Shown: positions 20,105 to 41,419 of the stretch, one piece after another
Numbering within the stretch: the stretch's first letter is position 1
Layout of the letters: the number at the start of each line of letters is the position of its first letter
From: a bacterium
Lineage (GTDB): Bacteria; Vulcanimicrobiota; Vulcanimicrobiia; Vulcanimicrobiales; SCRA01
Assembly (NCBI GenBank): GCA_004297985.1
Contig: SCRA01000088.1
Coordinates: forward strand, 1-52,532
Direction: 5' to 3'
Length of the DNA: 52,532 nucleotides
Position numbers and translations under genes: made by a program
The notes under the pieces: generated by a model
Database searches by the model: none
What the model saw: only the letters and a program-made list of their open reading frames with translations
What the model was told of the DNA's origin: nothing

Positions 20105-21829
20105 CTATGCGTGCAGGAGAGTGACGCGTCCGGCGCTGCCGTCGACGGCGGCGAGCAGGGGTCGGGCGCCGTCGAACGCCTCTCCCACGGCGCAGCCCAC
20201 CACCGCGGGAACGGCAAGGGAGCGAGCCACCTCGATGAGGTGGGCGCTCGGTCCGCCGCCGATAGAGATCAGCGCGGCGGCGTTCCAGAGCAGCGGCGCG
20301 TAACCCGGCAGCGGGTGCGGCACCACCAACACCATGCGTTGCGAAGGACGAGCGCTGTCGGGCCGCGAGGCGAACCACGCGCTGCCGGCGCCGATCCCTG
20401 GCGCGGCCGGCATGCCGGCATGTGCGCTGCCATTAGCCACCACCGTCAGATAGACGAAGGGCTCCCATCCCTCGCGCGGTGCGGCCGTTCGGCGCGGAGT
20501 GTGGTGCGGGTGACGCAAGGCGCGCTCCAGGCCAACGGCGCTCAAACGCCAGACGTCGTCCACCTTCGCCAGCGCTCCGGCCTCTACCAAGTGCCGGCCG
20601 ATGCCGCGCAGCAGCGCCACCAGGCGCACGCCTTGCGCGGCGTTGAGCAGGCGGCCCGCATCCAGCTTGGCCAGCGTTTCCCCTTGCAGGCCGTCGCGCA
20701 GCGCGATCAGCGCCTCGCGCGCCTCGCGCACGCTCTCGGCGCCGCGGTGGCCGCCTTGGCCCCAGGTGGCGGTCGAGAGCGTGGCCGCGATGGCCCGGGC
20801 CTCTGCGAAGGCACCCCACGGATCGGCGGACATCAGCGGCGCCACGGCGGAGGGCGAGGGAAAATCGGCCGATCCCACCGCCCACGGCAGCACCAATTCG
20901 TCGCCGAGCGGACCACCGTACTGGGCCGCCAGATGGGCGATGCGCACCGCGATCGGCACGACAAAGCCCTCGGCGGATGCCGGGAGCTCGTTCGAGCGCT
21001 CCTGGTCCGGCAGCGGCGCTGAGGGGCGCGACTGCAGGAGGAGCACGCCCCGCTCGGGCGTCCATCCCCATTCGATCAAATCGTCTTCGAACGCCGCACG
21101 CACGTTGCGCGAGAGGCGCGCGACCTCTCGGAAGACCGACGGCTCCACGTCGGCCATCTCGGCGGACGTCTGCAAGGCACCGTCGGCGGCGACGACCACG
21201 CGATGCCCCGACTCCCAGCCGCTGAGCACGTTCGCGGGCGAGCCGAGCGTCGCCGTGATGGTCACCGCGTCGCCGGCGGCGATCACCGCCACGCCGGAGA
21301 CGCCGAAAGATGCTTCGGGTTGGACCAGCACCGCCAGGCGCTGCTGTTCGGGGGCGACGCCCAGCTCCTCGCAGCGCTCCACGGCGTCGCGCGAGAAGGC
21401 CGAGGCCCAGCACCCGCGGATCGCCGTCTCCAGCTCCGCGGGCGCCACTCCCACGTACGAGGTGAAGGCTCCGGCCCACGCCGCATCGAGCTCCAGGGCA
21501 CTGGACGAGCGCACCACGAGCGACGCCCCCAACGGTTCCACCGCCGCGTGCAACTCCGCGAGCAAGGCGGGGTCGAGCGCTGCGCCCATGATGGCCAGAC
21601 GGGCCCCGCCGGGACCACGCGTGGCGGCCGCCTCGGCGCCGAGCGCAAGCGCGCGCTCCGCCTCGTCGGCCGGCACCACCACGCCCTGCAGCGCAGGCAA
21701 CCCGAGTCTGCGCGCCTGCGCCAGACGAGCAGCCTTGGCTCCGACGGCGTCGGGCGCAAGCGCACACGCCGCGTCGTCTAAGGCGGCAACGCGGCGTGCG
21801 GCTTGGCCACTGGGGCGAGAAGGATCCAC
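20105..21829 (-). CDS. Compact PEP-synthase / rifampicin-phosphotransferase-like dikinase
   Basis: Protein of 574 aa. The N-terminal half resembles the ATP-binding domain of PEP synthase and PPDK (GAKAARLAQARRLGLP; LVVRSSSALE with Arg107; LAVLVQPEA; LLLQSRPS). A helical linker (about 335-430) resembles that of rifampicin phosphotransferase. The C-terminal mobile domain has ISIGGGPSAHLIEVARS, with His530 in the phosphohistidine position. This predicts ATP hydrolysis to AMP and Pi with a phospho-His intermediate; the acceptor is unknown. There is no PEP-binding TIM barrel, so it is not PPDK or PEP synthase. GTG 21829 lies 5 bases after the M24 gene. Confidence 0.75.
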   Translation of the reverse strand: MDPSRPSGQAARRVAALDDAACALAPDAVGAKAARLAQARRLGLPALQGVVVPADEAERALALGAEAAATRGPGGARLAIMGAALDPALLAELHAAVEPLGASLVVRSSSALELDAAWAGAFTSYVGVAPAELETAIRGCWASAFSRDAVERCEELGVAPEQQRLAVLVQPEASFGVSGVAVIAAGDAVTITATLGSPANVLSGWESGHRVVVAADGALQTSAEMADVEPSVFREVARLSRNVRAAFEDDLIEWGWTPERGVLLLQSRPSAPLPDQERSNELPASAEGFVVPIAVRIAHLAAQYGGPLGDELVLPWAVGSADFPSPSAVAPLMSADPWGAFAEARAIAATLSTATWGQGGHRGAESVREAREALIALRDGLQGETLAKLDAGRLLNAAQGVRLVALLRGIGRHLVEAGALAKVDDVWRLSAVGLERALRHPHHTPRRTAAPREGWEPFVYLTVVANGSAHAGMPAAPGIGAGSAWFASRPDSARPSQRMVLVVPHPLPGYAPLLWNAAALISIGGGPSAHLIEVARSLAVPAVVGCAVGEAFDGARPLLAAVDGSAGRVTLLHA

Positions 21830-21834
21830 GTGCT

Positions 21835-23070
21835 CTAGCCGCAGACGGTGATCTCTTTGACTGGGAACGTGGAGATCAGCTCGGTGCGGTCCTCGTGAAC
21901 GATGAGCATCTCCTCGAGACGAACGCCGAACTCGTGGACCTTACCATGCTGCGTCTCCAGCGCGAAGACCATCCCAGGCTCGATGATCTGCGGAAAGTCC
22001 AGCGACCAGATGCGCGAGATCACCGGCATGTCGTACTGCGCCAGGCCCAGACCATGGCCCCACAGGTTGGCTGCAGCCTGGTCCTCGTCTTCGTAGCCCC
22101 ACGTCTCCTGCGCCGAGGGCCACTTGGATGCGATGTCGCGCGTGGTTACGCCGGCCTTGACGGCGCCGATGGCGTCGTAGAGCCACTTGTAGGCGATGTC
22201 ATAGTAACGCTTGTGCTCGTCGGTCGGCTTTCCGCCCACGCAGTACGTGCGGTAGTAGCATGACTTGAAGCCGTTCCAGGTGAGAGCGGCCAGGTCGATG
22301 ATCACGAGCTCCCCCGGCCGGATGATGCGGTCGGAGAAGTTACGCCAGTTGGGCCAGGCGTTGGGTCCGGAGGAGACGATGACGTCCTCGACATCTTCCA
22401 TGCCCGGGATGTTGTAGAGGTACTGCATCCCGAAGGCAGTGACCTGATTCTCGGTCAGGCCGGGCTTGAGCATCTTGGAGAATTCGTAGTGCAGAGCATC
22501 GCCGATGGCGCCGACGATGCGCATCGCCTCGTGCTCGTCTTTGTTCTTGACGGCGCGCGCCTGCATCATCGGCGTCATGCCGTCGGTCCACTTGATCCCG
22601 GCCTTCTCGAAGGCCCTGATCATGTTGATGTCGATGAAGTCAACGCCCAGCGGCTGATCCTTCACGCCCGCTTCCTCGAGCGCGTCGAGCAGAGCCTTGA
22701 CGAACTTGTCGACCTGCGTCGCCGAGGCGGGCCCGGCTGCGCCTTTGATCCAGGCGAACGAGTGCCGGATGTTCTCCGGCTTGAGCCAAGGGGAGTGGCG
22801 CGCAACGTGAATGCCGATATCGCCTTGCTCGAAGAGGATGGGATCCCTGCCCTCCACCAGGACCGCGTAACGCAGCCCAGGCTTGAGGCGATTCCATCCC
22901 GGGGTGAGCGTCGAGGTGATGTACCTTACGTTCTCGTCGTACATGCAGAGGATGGCGCCCAGGCCGTGGCTACGCATCGCTGCGCGCGCACGCGCTAAGC
23001 GGTGCTCGCGCATGCGCTGCCAGTTGATTCTCTCTTGCCAATCGGTACCGACACTGCCGAACGAAGCCAT
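21835..23070 (-). CDS. Creatinase/M24-fold hydrolase (Xaa-Pro-dipeptidase-like) lacking one metal ligand
   Basis: Protein of 411 aa with an N-terminal creatinase-like domain (about 20-160) and a C-terminal pita-bread fold. Expected M24 metal ligands are Asp259, His339, Glu372 and Glu386. The second Asp, normally in GYxSDxTRT, is replaced: the text reads GFKSCYYRT, with Cys271. It may bind a single metal or, like creatinase, none, and hydrolyse a C-N bond rather than a peptide. GAGGAG lies 8 bases upstream of ATG 23070. Transcribed from the operator-bearing promoter at 23135-23174. Confidence 0.85.
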   Translation of the reverse strand: MASFGSVGTDWQERINWQRMREHRLARARAAMRSHGLGAILCMYDENVRYITSTLTPGWNRLKPGLRYAVLVEGRDPILFEQGDIGIHVARHSPWLKPENIRHSFAWIKGAAGPASATQVDKFVKALLDALEEAGVKDQPLGVDFIDINMIRAFEKAGIKWTDGMTPMMQARAVKNKDEHEAMRIVGAIGDALHYEFSKMLKPGLTENQVTAFGMQYLYNIPGMEDVEDVIVSSGPNAWPNWRNFSDRIIRPGELVIIDLAALTWNGFKSCYYRTYCVGGKPTDEHKRYYDIAYKWLYDAIGAVKAGVTTRDIASKWPSAQETWGYEDEDQAAANLWGHGLGLAQYDMPVISRIWSLDFPQIIEPGMVFALETQHGKVHEFGVRLEEMLIVHEDRTELISTFPVKEITVCG

Positions 23071-23134: not shown

Positions 23135-23174
23135 TTTATCTTTTGATAAAACAATATGCCGGCCCGTCTGTCAA
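23135..23174 (-). promoter_or_regulatory. Promoter with overlapping TetR-type operator, copy 1 (drives M24 gene)
   Basis: Minus strand: TTGACA (23174-23169), 17-base spacer, TTTTAT (23151-23146). The -10 is embedded in a perfect palindrome TTTATC-N4-GATAAA (23135-23150). The same layout with the same spacing occurs on the plus strand at 24036-24075. Confidence 0.7.
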
Positions 23175-23315
23175 GAGTCGGCTCGCGACCGGCGGCTGGG
23201 CGGCGCGGGAGCCGCGTTTTCCGGTCGCGAAGGCGTGGGCATGAGGGAAGGAGCGTCGACCCATCCAAAGTAGCCGCCGTCCGTCCGTCGCATCCGCGCG
23301 TAAAGCCGCGAGCGC

Positions 23316-23372
23316 CAAGCCCAGGCCCAAAGCCAAGCCCAAGCCCAAGCCCAAGCCCAAGCCCAGGCCCAA
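23316..23372 (+). repeat. AAGCCC hexanucleotide tandem repeat
   Basis: Five consecutive AAGCCC units (23335-23364) flanked by AAGCCCAGGCCCAAAGCC and AGGCCC variants. If translated in the TetR frame they encode a Lys-Pro-rich tail; six-base units keep the frame when copy number changes. Confidence 0.8.
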
Positions 23373-23376
23373 GCGC

Positions 23377-24039
23377 CTGCCGCCGGACGAGCGCGAGCGG
23401 CTCATCGTTCGCGAGGCCGTAGCATTTTTTGCCGAGCGCGGCTTCGAGGGACAGACTCGGGAGTTGGCCAGGCGCCTGGGCATCACCCAACCCTTGCTCT
23501 ACCGCTACTTCCCGAGCAAGGAGGCTCTCCTCGAACGGGTCTACCAAGAGGTTTACCTCAACCGATGGAACCCGCACTGGGAAGATATCCTCGAGGACCG
23601 TTCCCGCTCCCTCGAAGACCGCATCGTGGAGTTTTATAGCGACTACGCCCGCGCGGTGCTGACCTACGAGTGGATCCGGGTATTCATGTTCTCCGGCCTA
23701 CGCGGCATGGACCTCAACGGACGGTACTTGACCGTGGTCCGCGACCGCATCTTCGCCCGCGTCATCCGTGAGCTCCGATTCGAAAACGCGTTGCCCGCGC
23801 CGTCCGAAGTGCCGATCAGCGAGGCGGAGTTCGAGCTGGTGTGGTCGTTGCACGCCAGCATATTCTATATCGGGATTCGGAAATGGATCTACGGCCTCGC
23901 GATCCCAGACGACGTCACGGCGGTGGTCGCGGCGCTGGCGACGGCATTCATCGAGGGCGTCCCGGCCGTGGTTGCGCGGCTCACGGGCGCGCCCCCTGAG
24001 CCGCGCGCGAAAGCGACGGCGCAGCAACGGACCCCTTGA
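23377..24039 (+). CDS. TetR/AcrR-family transcriptional regulator (start unclear)
   Basis: N-terminal HTH reads ERLIVREAVAFFAERGFEGQ and LARRLGITQPLLYRYFPSKE, the TetR signature; the rest (about 160 aa) is a helical ligand domain. The frame is open back to a stop at 23242 but contains no ATG, GTG or TTG before the HTH. I place the start at CTG 23377; other options are ATC 23263, which has GGAAGGAG nine bases upstream, or a sequence error. Starting at TTG 23464 would delete the first HTH helix. Upstream codons encode a Lys-Pro tail. It lies between two identical palindromes and probably represses both flanking operons. Confidence 0.8.
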   Translation: MPPDERERLIVREAVAFFAERGFEGQTRELARRLGITQPLLYRYFPSKEALLERVYQEVYLNRWNPHWEDILEDRSRSLEDRIVEFYSDYARAVLTYEWIRVFMFSGLRGMDLNGRYLTVVRDRIFARVIRELRFENALPAPSEVPISEAEFELVWSLHASIFYIGIRKWIYGLAIPDDVTAVVAALATAFIEGVPAVVARLTGAPPEPRAKATAQQRTP

Positions 24040-24075
24040 CAACCATCCGAGCTTTGTGTTTTATCGAGAGATAAA
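24036..24075 (+). promoter_or_regulatory. Promoter with overlapping TetR-type operator, copy 2 (drives binding-protein gene)
   Basis: TTGACA (24036-24041), 17-base spacer, TTTTAT (24059-24064), overlapping the perfect palindrome TTTATC-N4-GATAAA (24060-24075). The -35 overlaps the tetR stop. It drives the gene at 24189, which has a strong GAGGAGG ribosome site. Confidence 0.72.
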
Positions 24076-24188: not shown

Positions 24189-25457
24189 ATGCACCGTTCG
24201 AAACGCTCTAGGGCCGCTCTGGTACGATTACTCTCATTTGTGGCCATCTTGGCGGTCGGTACCGCGTTCGTCGGGGTATCCCCGGCACGCGCTGCCGACC
24301 AACCCCCGATCAAGGTCGGATTCATCTCGTCTTTGAGCGGCTATTTTGCCGCTCCCGGCAAGTACATGGAGGAGGGTCTCAAGCTCTACCTCCAGGAGCA
24401 CAACTACACGATCGCCGGACGCAAGATCGTGCTCGACATCGCCGACGACCAAGGGAATCCCGCGGTCGGCCTCACCCAGTTGCGCAGGCTCGTCGAACAG
24501 GATCACGTCGACGTGATCTTCGGCCCGCTCTCCGCCGCCGTGGGCTCGGCCATGGCGACGTATCTCGACTCGCACAAGACTCCCGCGGTCTTTCCGATCG
24601 TCTCGTCTGATGATCTCACCCAGCGCACACCGGCCGCCTACGCCGTGCGGACGGGCTGGACGAGCAGCCAGACCACGCAGCCGCTCGGCGACTACTCGTA
24701 CAAGACGCTGAAGTATCGCAAGGTGGCGACGATCGCCTACGACTTCTCGTTCGGCTGGGAGAGCATCGGCGGCTCTGTCGCTACGTTCCAAGACGACGGC
24801 GGCAAGGTGGTCAAGCAGATCTGGACGCCGCTTTCCACGACCGACTTCTCGCCATATCTCTCGGAGCTCCCACGCGACGTCGACGCCATAATGTGCAGCT
24901 TCTCCGGATCGCAAGCTATCAACTTCATGAAGCAGTACAAGGCGTTCGGCCTGAAGACACCGCTGATCTGTCAGGGGAATAGCACCGACGAGAGCACCCT
25001 CCAAACTACCGGTTCGGCGGCTCTGGGCGCCGTGACGTCGTTGCAGTATAGTGCCGCGCTCGATACGCCGACGAACAAGAAGTTCGTTGCGGCGTACACC
25101 AAGGCTTACGGGCACGGACCTTCGTACTACGGCGAGGGCACGTATGTCGGAGCGATGGTGCTGGCCGGCGGAATCGACGCGCTGCACGGGGACATCTCGG
25201 ACCCCGCGGCCTTTGTGAAGGCGATGCGCAGCGTCAATCTCACCAACGCACCACGCGGTCCGATCAGCTTCGACTCCTACGGCAATCCGGTGGAGAACGT
25301 TTACATCCGCAAGGTCGAAGAGGTTGACGGCCAGCTCGCGAACGTCGTGATTCAGACGGATCACAACGTCTCGCAGTTCTGGACATACAACCCTGCGACG
25401 TTCTTGCGGCATCCGGTGTATTCGCGAAGCTATCCGCCGTGCAACGACTGCAAGTAG
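24189..25457 (+). CDS. Branched-chain-type ABC transporter substrate-binding protein 1
   Basis: Secreted periplasmic-binding protein of 422 aa (type 1 fold, LivJ-like). Residues about 1-35 form a signal peptide ending near PARAADQ. The mature domain starts PPIKVGFISSLSG, with LVEQDHVDVIFGPLS and the hinge motif KVATIAYDFSFGWESIGG. It ends in CNDCK, an uncommon cysteine pair shared with the paralogue at 41456. Ligands of this family include amino acids, amides and aromatic acids. GAGGAGG lies six bases upstream of the ATG. Confidence 0.93.
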   Translation: MHRSKRSRAALVRLLSFVAILAVGTAFVGVSPARAADQPPIKVGFISSLSGYFAAPGKYMEEGLKLYLQEHNYTIAGRKIVLDIADDQGNPAVGLTQLRRLVEQDHVDVIFGPLSAAVGSAMATYLDSHKTPAVFPIVSSDDLTQRTPAAYAVRTGWTSSQTTQPLGDYSYKTLKYRKVATIAYDFSFGWESIGGSVATFQDDGGKVVKQIWTPLSTTDFSPYLSELPRDVDAIMCSFSGSQAINFMKQYKAFGLKTPLICQGNSTDESTLQTTGSAALGAVTSLQYSAALDTPTNKKFVAAYTKAYGHGPSYYGEGTYVGAMVLAGGIDALHGDISDPAAFVKAMRSVNLTNAPRGPISFDSYGNPVENVYIRKVEEVDGQLANVVIQTDHNVSQFWTYNPATFLRHPVYSRSYPPCNDCK

Positions 25458-25466
25458 TGAGCGACG

Positions 25467-26471
25467 ATGCGCGCTATGGTACTGGAGTCCTTCGGCGCGC
25501 CGCTGCAGTTGCGCGAGCTGCCGGAGCCCGCGCCGGGTCCGGGCGACGCGATCGTACGCGTGCAGGCGTGCGGCGTCTGCGCGAGCGACCTCAAGATCAC
25601 CTCGGGGGCGCTCACGAGGACGCCTCTGCCCCACGTTCCCGGTCACGAGATCGCGGGCGTGGTGGCGGCGGTGGGGCCCGGCGTGACGTCGCCCCGGGTG
25701 GGCGACCGGGTGGCTTGCTACTTCTATCTTTCGTGCGGCAATTGCATCAACTGCCGCAGCGGGCGCGGTACGGTATGCCTGGCGCTTGCTGGGCGCATCG
25801 GCTTCGAGATCGACGGGGGCCTCGCGGAGCTGGTCCGCATACCGGCGGCGTTGTGCCTCCCAGTTCCCGACGGAGTTCCCCCTGAGGCCGCCGCCGTCGC
25901 GATGGACGCAATCGCTACGCCGTATCACGCGATCGTGACGCGCGGTCGCCTCGCCGCTGGAGAGACGGCAGCCATCGTGGGCGTAGGCGGCCTGGGCCTT
26001 CACGGCGTCGAACTCGCGCGCGCGGTTGGTGCGCGGGTGATCGCGATCGACGTCGACGAAGGGCGCCTGGCCCTCGCGCGCGAGTTGGGAGCCGACCTGA
26101 CCGTGCTCTCCAGCCCCGCGGGATGGCCGCTCAATGGTCTACTCGCGGACTTTGTGCTCGACACGGCGTCCACCGCGCAGACGCTCTTGGGCGACGTGGC
26201 GCTGCTGCGCCCCGGCGGACGCCTGGCGCTGATAGGCTACAAACCCGGTCTGGGAGCCGATTGGGACACTGCGGATCTCGTGCTGAACGAGATCACCGTG
26301 CTGCCTTCGCGCGCCGCGGGGCGCGAAGAGTGCGAGCGCGTGCTTGACCTCTTGGCGATGGGGCGCATCCGCGCGGTCATCGACCGGAGGTATGCGCTCA
26401 TCGACGTAAACCGGGCGCTCGATGCCCTGCGCGGCGGCAAGCTCAACGGCCGCGCCGTAGTGACGATCTAG
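25467..26471 (+). CDS. Zinc-dependent alcohol dehydrogenase (MDR family)
   Basis: Oxidoreductase of 334 aa. Catalytic zinc residues lie in CGVCASDLK and PGHEIAG; the structural-zinc lobe is CGNCINCRSGRGTVC. The nucleotide fold has VGVGGLGLHGVELA and an acidic end of beta-2 (IDVDEG), which suggests NAD. Nine bases downstream of the binding-protein gene and in the same transcript. The substrate is an alcohol or hydroxy compound of the island's unknown pathway. Its stop overlaps the convergent cysteine-hydrolase stop. Confidence 0.92.
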   Translation: MRAMVLESFGAPLQLRELPEPAPGPGDAIVRVQACGVCASDLKITSGALTRTPLPHVPGHEIAGVVAAVGPGVTSPRVGDRVACYFYLSCGNCINCRSGRGTVCLALAGRIGFEIDGGLAELVRIPAALCLPVPDGVPPEAAAVAMDAIATPYHAIVTRGRLAAGETAAIVGVGGLGLHGVELARAVGARVIAIDVDEGRLALARELGADLTVLSSPAGWPLNGLLADFVLDTASTAQTLLGDVALLRPGGRLALIGYKPGLGADWDTADLVLNEITVLPSRAAGREECERVLDLLAMGRIRAVIDRRYALIDVNRALDALRGGKLNGRAVVTI

Positions 26472-27097
26472 CCGTGAGCGATTGGAGCCAGCTCGGCTTC
26501 GAGCTCTTCCCAGCGCAGGACCCGCCCGAGGCAGACCTGCACGAGCTTCAGCGCCATCGCGTGCGCCTCGGGGCCGTCCATCGTTTCCACACACTCCTCG
26601 AGCAGCACCAGCTCGAGATCGCGGTTCACGATCTCGAAGGCGTTGCACAGCACGCAGCTGTTCGTGTTGATACCAGCCAACAGCACCGTGCGCGCGCCGC
26701 GGTCGCGCAGCACGAATTCGAGGTCGGTATGCAGAAAGGCGCTGTAGCGCTTCTTCGTGTTTACCACCACGTCATCGGGCCGGTAGAGCTCGGGGATGAT
26801 CTGCGTGCCCGGCGAGCCCTCCATATTGTGCTCTGCGCTGCGCGTTCGCGTGCCCGAGCGCTTGGAGGCCCAGAACGGATTGCTCTCGGCCTCGGACGGC
26901 CGGCGGTACATGGTGACCACGTGTACTACGGGAATCCCAGCGGCCCGGGCACGATCGAAGATGCGCGCGCTGCGCTCGACGACGGCACGGGCACGATCAG
27001 CGGCTACGGGCATGGTCGCAACCGCGGGGTCCAGATGACCCCGGTGCATATCGATCGCGACGAGAATGGGGCGTTCGAGCCGTTTAATCGCGGTCAT
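26468..27097 (-). CDS. Isochorismatase-like cysteine hydrolase
   Basis: Hydrolase of 209 aa with the family triad: Asp16 in VAIDMHRG, Lys116 in the KKRYSAF segment and nucleophile Cys148 in TNSCVLCNAF. The family includes nicotinamidase, N-carbamoylsarcosine amidase and ureidoacrylate amidase, so an amide or ureide is the likely substrate. It stands alone on the minus strand between two plus-strand genes, divergent from the decarboxylase-like gene by only 42 bases. Confidence 0.88.
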   Translation of the reverse strand: MTAIKRLERPILVAIDMHRGHLDPAVATMPVAADRARAVVERSARIFDRARAAGIPVVHVVTMYRRPSEAESNPFWASKRSGTRTRSAEHNMEGSPGTQIIPELYRPDDVVVNTKKRYSAFLHTDLEFVLRDRGARTVLLAGINTNSCVLCNAFEIVNRDLELVLLEECVETMDGPEAHAMALKLVQVCLGRVLRWEELEAELAPIAHG

Positions 27098-35840: not shown

Positions 35841-37130
35841 TTACGGTGCCTTGATGCCTTGGAACGCCGTCGAGTAAACCGGCTGTTTCAGATACTGTTG
35901 CGGCGAGAGGCTCCAGAACTGCGAGACGTTCGGATAGGTCTTGAGCACGACGTTCCAGGTCTTGCCGTACTTCGCCAGCGGTCCAGTCACCGTCTCGATC
36001 CGCCGCACGTAGATGTTCTCGACGGGGTTGTTGTACGCATCCAGCTGCAGCGGCCCGAACGCAGAGTCCGCGAGACGTACTGAGCGCACGGCGGCCAGAA
36101 AGGCGTCGGTGTTCTCGACGTTCCCGTGCACCTTCAGCATCGCGTCGTCGATCCACTGCGCCGCCGTGAAGAAGGCGGCCGCCATGTACGACGGCAGCTT
36201 TCCCGTCTTCGCCGCGAAGTTCGCATCGAATCCCTGGGTTGCCGGGTCGTTGCGCCCCTCGGCGAAGTGGCCGAAGCTGATGATCCCGTCGACCACGTCC
36301 GGAGGCAGCGTTCGGGTATTGGACTGGTCGGTGGTGGTCTCGTTGGCGATCAGCGGGATCTTGCCTTTGAGGCCAAACGCGTGCCACTGCTGAAGAAAGT
36401 GCACGGCGTCGGAGCCCACCATCTCCACGAAGACGACGTCCGGTTTGGCGGCCTCGATCTGCGAGAGGTAGGGGCTGTAGTCGGTGTTACCGAGCGGAGT
36501 CCAGATCTGCTTGAGGACTTTGCCGCCCTTGTCGGTGAACGTCTGGTTGAAGCCGCCGACGTTCTCGTAGCCGAAGGCGTAGGCGTCGGCGATGGTCACG
36601 ACGGTTCGATATCCCTTATCGTAGGCCCAGTCGCCGGCCGGATGCGTCGGCTGGCTGCTGGTCCAGCCGGCAACGCGGATAACGTACTTGTTGACTTTGC
36701 GCTGGGTCAGATCATCCGCGGAGACCGTCGGCTCCAGGAACGGAATCTCGTGCTGAATGGCGTAAGGCGCCACGGCCAGGCCCTCGTTGGCGAGGTAAGG
36801 CCCCACGATCATCTGGACGTGGTCTTGCTCGACGGCTTGCCGCGCCACGGTCAGGGCACGAGCCGGATCGGAGCCGGTATCGTAGAAGGTGAATTGGATC
36901 TTCCGTCCACTCACGGTATCGCCGTGCTCCGCCCAATAGAGCTTCCAGGCGGTGACCATATCGTGGCCGGCGGCGGCGGCGGTGCCCGACTCGGAGGCCA
37001 AGACACCGATGCGGATCGGGGGATTCTCCGCGCCGCGCGCGGAGACCGTGGTCAACGAGAGAGCTGCGGCGCAGATGGAAACGTACGCCGCGACGTGATG
37101 ATGACGAAGGAAAGCGAAAACCCGTTTCAT
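35841..37130 (-). CDS. Branched-chain-type ABC transporter substrate-binding protein 2
   Basis: Secreted binding protein of 429 aa. Signal peptide about 1-34 (helix AAYVSICAAALSLTTVSARG). The mature part starts PPIRIGVLASESGTAAAAG, with RQAVEQDHVQMIVGPYLANEG. It is clearly more diverged from copies 1 and 3 than they are from each other, and lacks their terminal CNxCK. ATG 37130 has GGGAGG five bases upstream. First gene of the transporter operon proper, so it is the likeliest cognate partner. Confidence 0.93.
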   Translation of the reverse strand: MKRVFAFLRHHHVAAYVSICAAALSLTTVSARGAENPPIRIGVLASESGTAAAAGHDMVTAWKLYWAEHGDTVSGRKIQFTFYDTGSDPARALTVARQAVEQDHVQMIVGPYLANEGLAVAPYAIQHEIPFLEPTVSADDLTQRKVNKYVIRVAGWTSSQPTHPAGDWAYDKGYRTVVTIADAYAFGYENVGGFNQTFTDKGGKVLKQIWTPLGNTDYSPYLSQIEAAKPDVVFVEMVGSDAVHFLQQWHAFGLKGKIPLIANETTTDQSNTRTLPPDVVDGIISFGHFAEGRNDPATQGFDANFAAKTGKLPSYMAAAFFTAAQWIDDAMLKVHGNVENTDAFLAAVRSVRLADSAFGPLQLDAYNNPVENIYVRRIETVTGPLAKYGKTWNVVLKTYPNVSQFWSLSPQQYLKQPVYSTAFQGIKAP

Positions 37131-37272
37131 GCGGTCCTCCCAGCGTGCAAGCTGCACAGGCGAGTAGCAATCAGCGGCCTCGGAAATCGTCTTTTTTGTT
37201 GTTGTTCGCTTGATAAATATCGGAGTCCCTGTCGAGAACCTTCGGGCGGGGAGAGAAATTGCCGCAGGGCAC
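37131..37272 (-). promoter_or_regulatory. Intergenic region with a degenerate TetR-type site upstream of binding protein 2
   Basis: At 37202-37217 reads TTGTTC-N4-GATAAA: one arm matches the perfect operators at 23135 and 24060 and the other matches 4 of 6. No TTGACA lies at the right distance. It may be a weak third site, or chance in an AT-rich gap. Confidence 0.3.
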
Positions 37273-40660: not shown

Positions 40661-41419
40661 GTGACCCGGTTGCGCGGCGCTGCTGCAAGCGCTGCCCTCG
40701 CCTCGATCGCCGGCCGCCACCGTGCGCTACGCGAGCTACGCCCTGAGGGGGCAGCGGCTCACTCGCTGAGCAGCGCCGTGGTCGTCCCGCCGTTGCGCGA
40801 GGCAATCATCGGGGGACAACTGCCTCCGGGGACCCGATTATCGGAGGTCGAGCTCGCTCGCGAGCTTGGGGTGAGTCGCACCCCGGTGCGCGAGGCGCTC
40901 GCCCAGCTCGAGCGCGATGGGCTGGTGACGATCGTCGCGCGGGCCGGTGCCTTCGTTAGGACAGTGACGGTCGATGATCTCGCCGAGATCTATGAGACGC
41001 GTATGGCGCTCGAGACGTTCGCCGTCCAGTTAGTCGCGCAACGCCTCACCCCGGTCGGCCGCACCCGCCTCGAGGAGGTGCTGGCCGAGATGCGCGAGCG
41101 CGTCGCACACGACGATCACGTCGGCTACACGGCGGAGCTCGACCGCTTCTACGCGATCATCATGGAGCTTGCGGGGAATGCCACGCTGCGTCAAATCCAC
41201 GAAACCGTCCTCGTCCCCGTGCGGAGGCTTCGCCGCATCGCGATGAGCCACGAGAACCGCATGGCCGAATCGCTGGTGCACGCCGAGGAGATCGCCGGCG
41301 CGATGCTTGCCGGTGACGGCGCCGGCGCCGCCGCGGCGATGCGCGAACAGCTCGTCACCGCATGTCAGGCCGCAAAAGACGTCCTGCTCCACGCACCCCA
41401 TGCTTGCCCTCCCCCGTGA
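40661..41419 (+). CDS. GntR-family regulator, FCD (FadR-like) subgroup
   Basis: Regulator of 252 aa. A winged helix (about 42-105) contains PGTRLSEVELARELGVSRTPVREALAQLERDGLV, here cited as its ends PGTRLSEVE and QLERDGLV; the C-terminal helical FCD domain has metal-binding Asp/His candidates (ELDRFYAIIMELAGN, HAEEI). GTG 40661 or a later GTG in SSAVVVPP may be the start. Such proteins usually sense organic acids and bind TTGTATAC-like palindromes, one of which lies 66 bases upstream. Confidence 0.92.
   Translation: MTRLRGAAASAALASIAGRHRALRELRPEGAAAHSLSSAVVVPPLREAIIGGQLPPGTRLSEVELARELGVSRTPVREALAQLERDGLVTIVARAGAFVRTVTVDDLAEIYETRMALETFAVQLVAQRLTPVGRTRLEEVLAEMRERVAHDDHVGYTAELDRFYAIIMELAGNATLRQIHETVLVPVRRLRRIAMSHENRMAESLVHAEEIAGAMLAGDGAGAAAAMREQLVTACQAAKDVLLHAPHACPPP

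Follow-up and report, generated by a model that had tools for sequence, protein, structure and literature searches.

A TetR-family regulator gene and its predicted paired operators in a catabolic gene cluster of an uncultured soil bacterium

Introduction

In the genome of a soil bacterium from the uncultured phylum Eremiobacterota (a MAG), a gene for a TetR-family regulator stands between two operons that are directed away from it, and the promoter of each operon carries a palindrome over its -10 element. The arrangement raises the question of whether the regulator controls both operons through the two palindromes, and whether a single ligand would release both at once, as had been proposed in an earlier note on this DNA. 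Here, we follow this proposal through the window (the whole stretch of 52,532 nucleotides that was analysed), the genome around it, and related and distant genomes. We regard it as highly probable that the TetR protein represses both operons through the two operators and that one ligand relieves both; in this model we infer binding, repression, the ligand and joint induction. The features of the locus are collected in Table 1.

Table 1. Features of the tetR locus, in positions of the window.
Feature	Position	Strand	Remarks
PEP-synthase/dikinase-like gene	20105..21829	-	PPDK_N and PEP-utilisers domain; second gene of the M24 operon
M24 (creatinase/prolidase-type) family gene	21835..23070	-	Pfam PF00557; first gene under operator 1
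Operator 1, TTTATC-TTTT-GATAAA, TTTATCTTTTGATAAA	23135..23150	.	Exact match; kept in G001 and G002
M24-operon promoter	23146..23174	-	TTGACA 23174-23169, N17, TTTTAT 23151-23146
tetR open frame	23245..24039	+	PF00440; helix-turn-helix (HTH) near frame residues 54-99
Conserved TetR protein segment	23377..24036	+	Used in comparisons
Binding-protein-operon promoter	24036..24064	+	TTGACA 24036-24041, N17, TTTTAT 24059-24064
Operator 2, TTTATC-GAGA-GATAAA, TTTATCGAGAGATAAA	24060..24075	.	Exact match; kept in G001 and G002
Liv-type ABC transporter substrate-binding protein (Peripla_BP_6) gene	24189..25457	+	Domain match
Zinc-type alcohol dehydrogenase gene	25467..26471	+	Domain match; after the binding-protein gene

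The twin promoter-operators

A motif scan of the window finds two mismatch-free copies of TTTATC-N4-GATAAA, each overlapping the -10 element of a TTGACA-N17-TTTTAT promoter; the two promoters lie on opposite strands and point away from the tetR gene between them. The earlier note had described exactly this arrangement, one copy per strand, and the description is accurate to the base. Its further claim that the two promoter-operators are identical is true of the hexamers, the spacing and the half-sites, but not of the spacer and the central four bases, which differ. The -35 hexamers are perfect and the -10 hexamers agree with the TATAAT consensus at four of six positions; a generic promoter scan omits both promoters, as the second base of its -10 must be A. 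The tetR stop codon (TGA, 24037-24039) falls inside the -35 of the binding-protein-operon promoter. No promoter was identified for tetR itself.

The palindrome is rare. The whole 3.19 Mb genome holds only these two exact sites, both at the tetR locus and within 1 kb, against 0.007 expected from base composition, and 100 shuffles of the window produced no exact match. The check set beforehand, a genome scan for the motif, thus found that it is not common, and a chance origin, which had already been held to be unlikely, is refuted by these counts together with the conservation of the sites across species and families described below; we put its probability at effectively nil. A relaxed search allowing up to two mismatches yielded six further places in the genome, all with two mismatches, against four matches for a control pattern, and gave no clear additional member of the regulon.

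A degenerate, half-conserved operator, TTTATCAAGCGAACAA, lies on the minus strand at window positions 37202-37217, upstream of the gene for a second substrate-binding protein (35841-37157). Its TTTATC half and its GAACAA half are both retained in G002, and it is a candidate for a weak third site.

Conservation in congeners and across the order

Of the three further genomes in the family, two (G001 and G002) carry a tetR orthologue, and each of these has both sites and no others. When both promoters are compared across the three congeneric species, the -35 hexamer (6/6), the T plus half-site (7/7) and the remaining half-site (6/6) are invariant and the 17-base spacing is constant, whereas only 9-12 of the 17 spacer positions and 8-9 of the 30 positions of the downstream flank are kept; the palindrome centres differ too.

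Orthologues of the TetR protein were found in 11 of 117 genomes of the class, three in the genus of the window and the other eight, at about 70% identity, in one genus of another family. The exact motif occurs in 10 of the 103 genomes of the order, all of which have this TetR, and in none of the 92 genomes without it (Fisher p = 5e-13, a value that is indicative only, as the genomes are related). One genome, G113, has the TetR and no motif. Its contig ends inside an amidohydrolase gene, and in its sister genomes this gene separates tetR from the operator site; the contig stops before the site would be reached.

The tetR gene and its product

The start of tetR is anomalous. The congeners start at a GTG; the aligned codon here is an ATG at 23241, from which a stop is reached after 10 codons. 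In the TetR frame itself, none of ATG, GTG and TTG occurs upstream of 23464, a position inside the HTH. The gene could hence have been broken here by a one-nucleotide frameshift, which would leave both operons constitutive and the operators as relics. We consider this unlikely: the remainder of the frame is uninterrupted, its conserved part shares 91-93% identity with congeners whose GTG-started frames are open, both operators are intact, and a one-base error in the MAG or a non-AUG start (an ATC that follows AAGGAG by about 9 nt) would account for the anomaly. An assembly error of one base, a real frameshift and a non-AUG start are all possible.

Ahead of the HTH, positions 23300-23376 encode a Lys/Pro-rich N-terminal tail, KPKPKPKPKPRPK, which derives from a 6-bp repeat and differs in length in each congener. 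Additional DNA contacts by this tail are possible.

The protein scores 53.8 bits against the N-terminal TetR-type HTH domain PF00440 (cut-off 24), and its gene adjoins what is expected of the family, a palindromic putative operator that overlaps a promoter. An AlphaFold model of the conserved segment is all helical with a mean pLDDT of 91.5, in line with the family fold, in which a C-terminal ligand/dimerisation domain follows the HTH. Its best matches among solved structures are TetR-family regulators; for the ligand domain, the search of solved structures returned nothing closely related. The protein scores below all curated TetR equivalog cut-offs and is neither the tetracycline repressor TetR (NF010319, 31.9 bits, cut-off 265) nor AcuR (NF051457, 29.4 bits, cut-off 247).

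In a register taken from the sequence alignment to TetR, Arg28, Gln38, Pro39, Tyr42 and Lys48 are conserved, the first four of them in the window protein and in all relatives aligned. In the tetracycline repressor, Arg28 hydrogen-bonds G+2 and Gln38 A+3 of tetO, while Tyr42 packs on T+4 (PMC7102968). The half-site of the present palindrome reads GATAAA from the centre outward and contains the GAT triplet that is read in tetO.

The operator in other families and phyla

In the second family of the order, the operator is found on other genes. It overlaps a TTGACA-N17 to N19-TTTTAT promoter before a flavin reductase gene in the vicinity of tetR; the flavin reductase gene is divergent from a gene for an amidohydrolase resembling 2-amino-3-carboxymuconate-6-semialdehyde decarboxylase (ACMSD), and tetR adjoins a luciferase-like monooxygenase gene. 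The difference in target genes indicates that the motif tracks tetR rather than one set of targets. The region between tetR and the luciferase-like monooxygenase gene (L028-L036) also carries a degenerate palindrome, TCTATC-N4-GATMAC or close to it, in seven of the eight genomes, and this is likely to be a weaker, autoregulatory site.

A profile built from the 11 TetR proteins retrieved 521 relatives from a collection with one genome per species, and the 73 best loci from other phyla, Proteobacteria in almost every case, were analysed. A de novo scan for five-base inverted repeats of whatever sequence, gapped by 0-10 bases, from about -260 to +960 of tetR, returned TTATC-N4-GATAA as the top dyad by number of loci (28/73). 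The 89 kb near tetR contain 23 exact sites and the 763 kb elsewhere contain 3, although the 73 loci are mutually related and the counts non-independent. At 42 of the 73 loci no site lies near tetR even under relaxed matching, though the recognition helix is the same; these regulators may have their targets elsewhere or tolerate other half-sites.

In rhizobial loci, the operator sits between tetR and an operon for a binding protein, an amidohydrolase, an aldehyde dehydrogenase and Liv permeases, the same kind of module as the cluster in the window. It stands beside genes for an FAD monooxygenase and a symporter in Bradyrhizobium and Skermanella, and beside molybdenum hydroxylase subunit genes in Stappia. 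The cassettes are thus of several types: Liv-type transport with an ACMSD-like decarboxylase and an aldehyde dehydrogenase, a two-component flavin monooxygenase, an FAD monooxygenase with a symporter, and a molybdenum hydroxylase. On balance, we favour the view that a large, uncharacterised TetR subfamily in Eremiobacterota and Proteobacteria forms a portable regulator-operator pair, with one operator placed on different catabolic cassettes and a regulon predictable across phyla.

Gene clusters are inherited or transferred as blocks, and the palindromes might belong to another regulator and lie near tetR through shared cluster ancestry. This reading is highly improbable, as the motif accompanies tetR from phylum to phylum and the genes under control vary from M24 and binding-protein genes to those for flavin reductase, FAD monooxygenase and symporter, or molybdenum hydroxylase subunits. 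Moreover, in G062, from another genus, the M24 gene (82% identity) is accompanied neither by a match to this TetR nor by the motif, and the contact residues of the TetR protein match the half-site. The pairing of this TetR with both sites, as put forward in the earlier note, is supported by conservation in congeners, by co-occurrence across the order and by the de novo recovery of the dyad; judged by sequence, the palindrome is very probably the binding site of this repressor.

Predicted mechanism and ligand

We propose that the TetR-family protein would bind TTTATC-N4-GATAAA as a dimer. At both promoters, which have a consensus -35, the site extends over the -10 and the start region, so that the bound dimer should exclude RNA polymerase. 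Repression would shut the M24/dikinase-like operon on the left and the binding-protein/alcohol-dehydrogenase operon on the right. Some TetR-family proteins are activators, among them FasR, a structural neighbour of the present protein, and TetR bound here might activate, or might repress one promoter only. We find this highly improbable: activators usually bind upstream of the -35, but these sites overlap the -10 and start of perfect-TTGACA promoters with fitting spacing, a geometry of occlusion. Under repression of both operons, a small molecule would free TetR from the two sites at once and bring about coordinate derepression; that one ligand should act on both follows from the biology of the TetR family.

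The most likely ligand would be the substrate of the catabolic cluster or one of its early products. The amidohydrolase encoded downstream is closest to ACMSD. The aldehyde dehydrogenase falls under every listed equivalog cut-off but is similar to the semialdehyde dehydrogenases that act in ring-cleavage pathways. The best solved relative of the substrate-binding protein is 4ey3, which we take to be an aromatic-acid-binding protein of Rhodopseudomonas. On these three likenesses, our guess is an aromatic acid or a ring-cleavage product.

The start of the M24 gene has GAGGAG ahead of it, and identification of its product as the DMSP lyase DddP was rejected with a score far under the cut-off. A gene for an isochorismatase-family hydrolase (26468-27097, minus strand) lies between, and opposite to, the alcohol dehydrogenase and amidohydrolase genes, its stop overlapping that of the former. 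Further to the right, a GntR/FCD-type regulator gene (40661-41419) is divergent from enoyl-CoA hydratase and aldehyde dehydrogenase genes; a separate switch may serve the right half of the cluster.

Comparison with known systems

The open-licence papers searched describe no TetR protein with this operator, and gave no match via NicS or via TetR regulators of Eremiobacterota. With its paired operators, the arrangement is that of a classical local repressor of the TetR family, an ordinary type of switch; the operator assignment is new for this uncharacterised TetR group, within a known kind of system. A testable operator is now proposed for a TetR subfamily with hundreds of occurrences (521) in sequenced genomes, and the matched repressor, promoters and operators amount to a genetic handle from an uncultured phylum.

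AcuR, the acrylate utilisation regulator, has a weak match to the present protein across the HTH and further (frame residues 40-147). NicS is likewise a TetR-family protein. Both NicS (nicAB, Pseudomonas putida) and NicR2 (P. putida S16) resemble the present regulator in being tied to catabolic genes for ring compounds (PMC10269826; PMC5500553). The structural matches of the model include NicR2, at an identity of only 17-18%.

The tetracycline repressor shares the HTH register (Arg28, Gln38, Pro39, Tyr42 and Lys48) and the use of a single repressor with paired operators over divergent promoters, but the ligand-binding half of the present protein is not that of TetR, and no efflux pump adjoins the gene here. 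The half-sites of tetO contain GATA and lie three bases apart, compared with four here. The comparison suggests that a GATA half-site and the residues that read it are common to the two repressors despite their different ligand domains.
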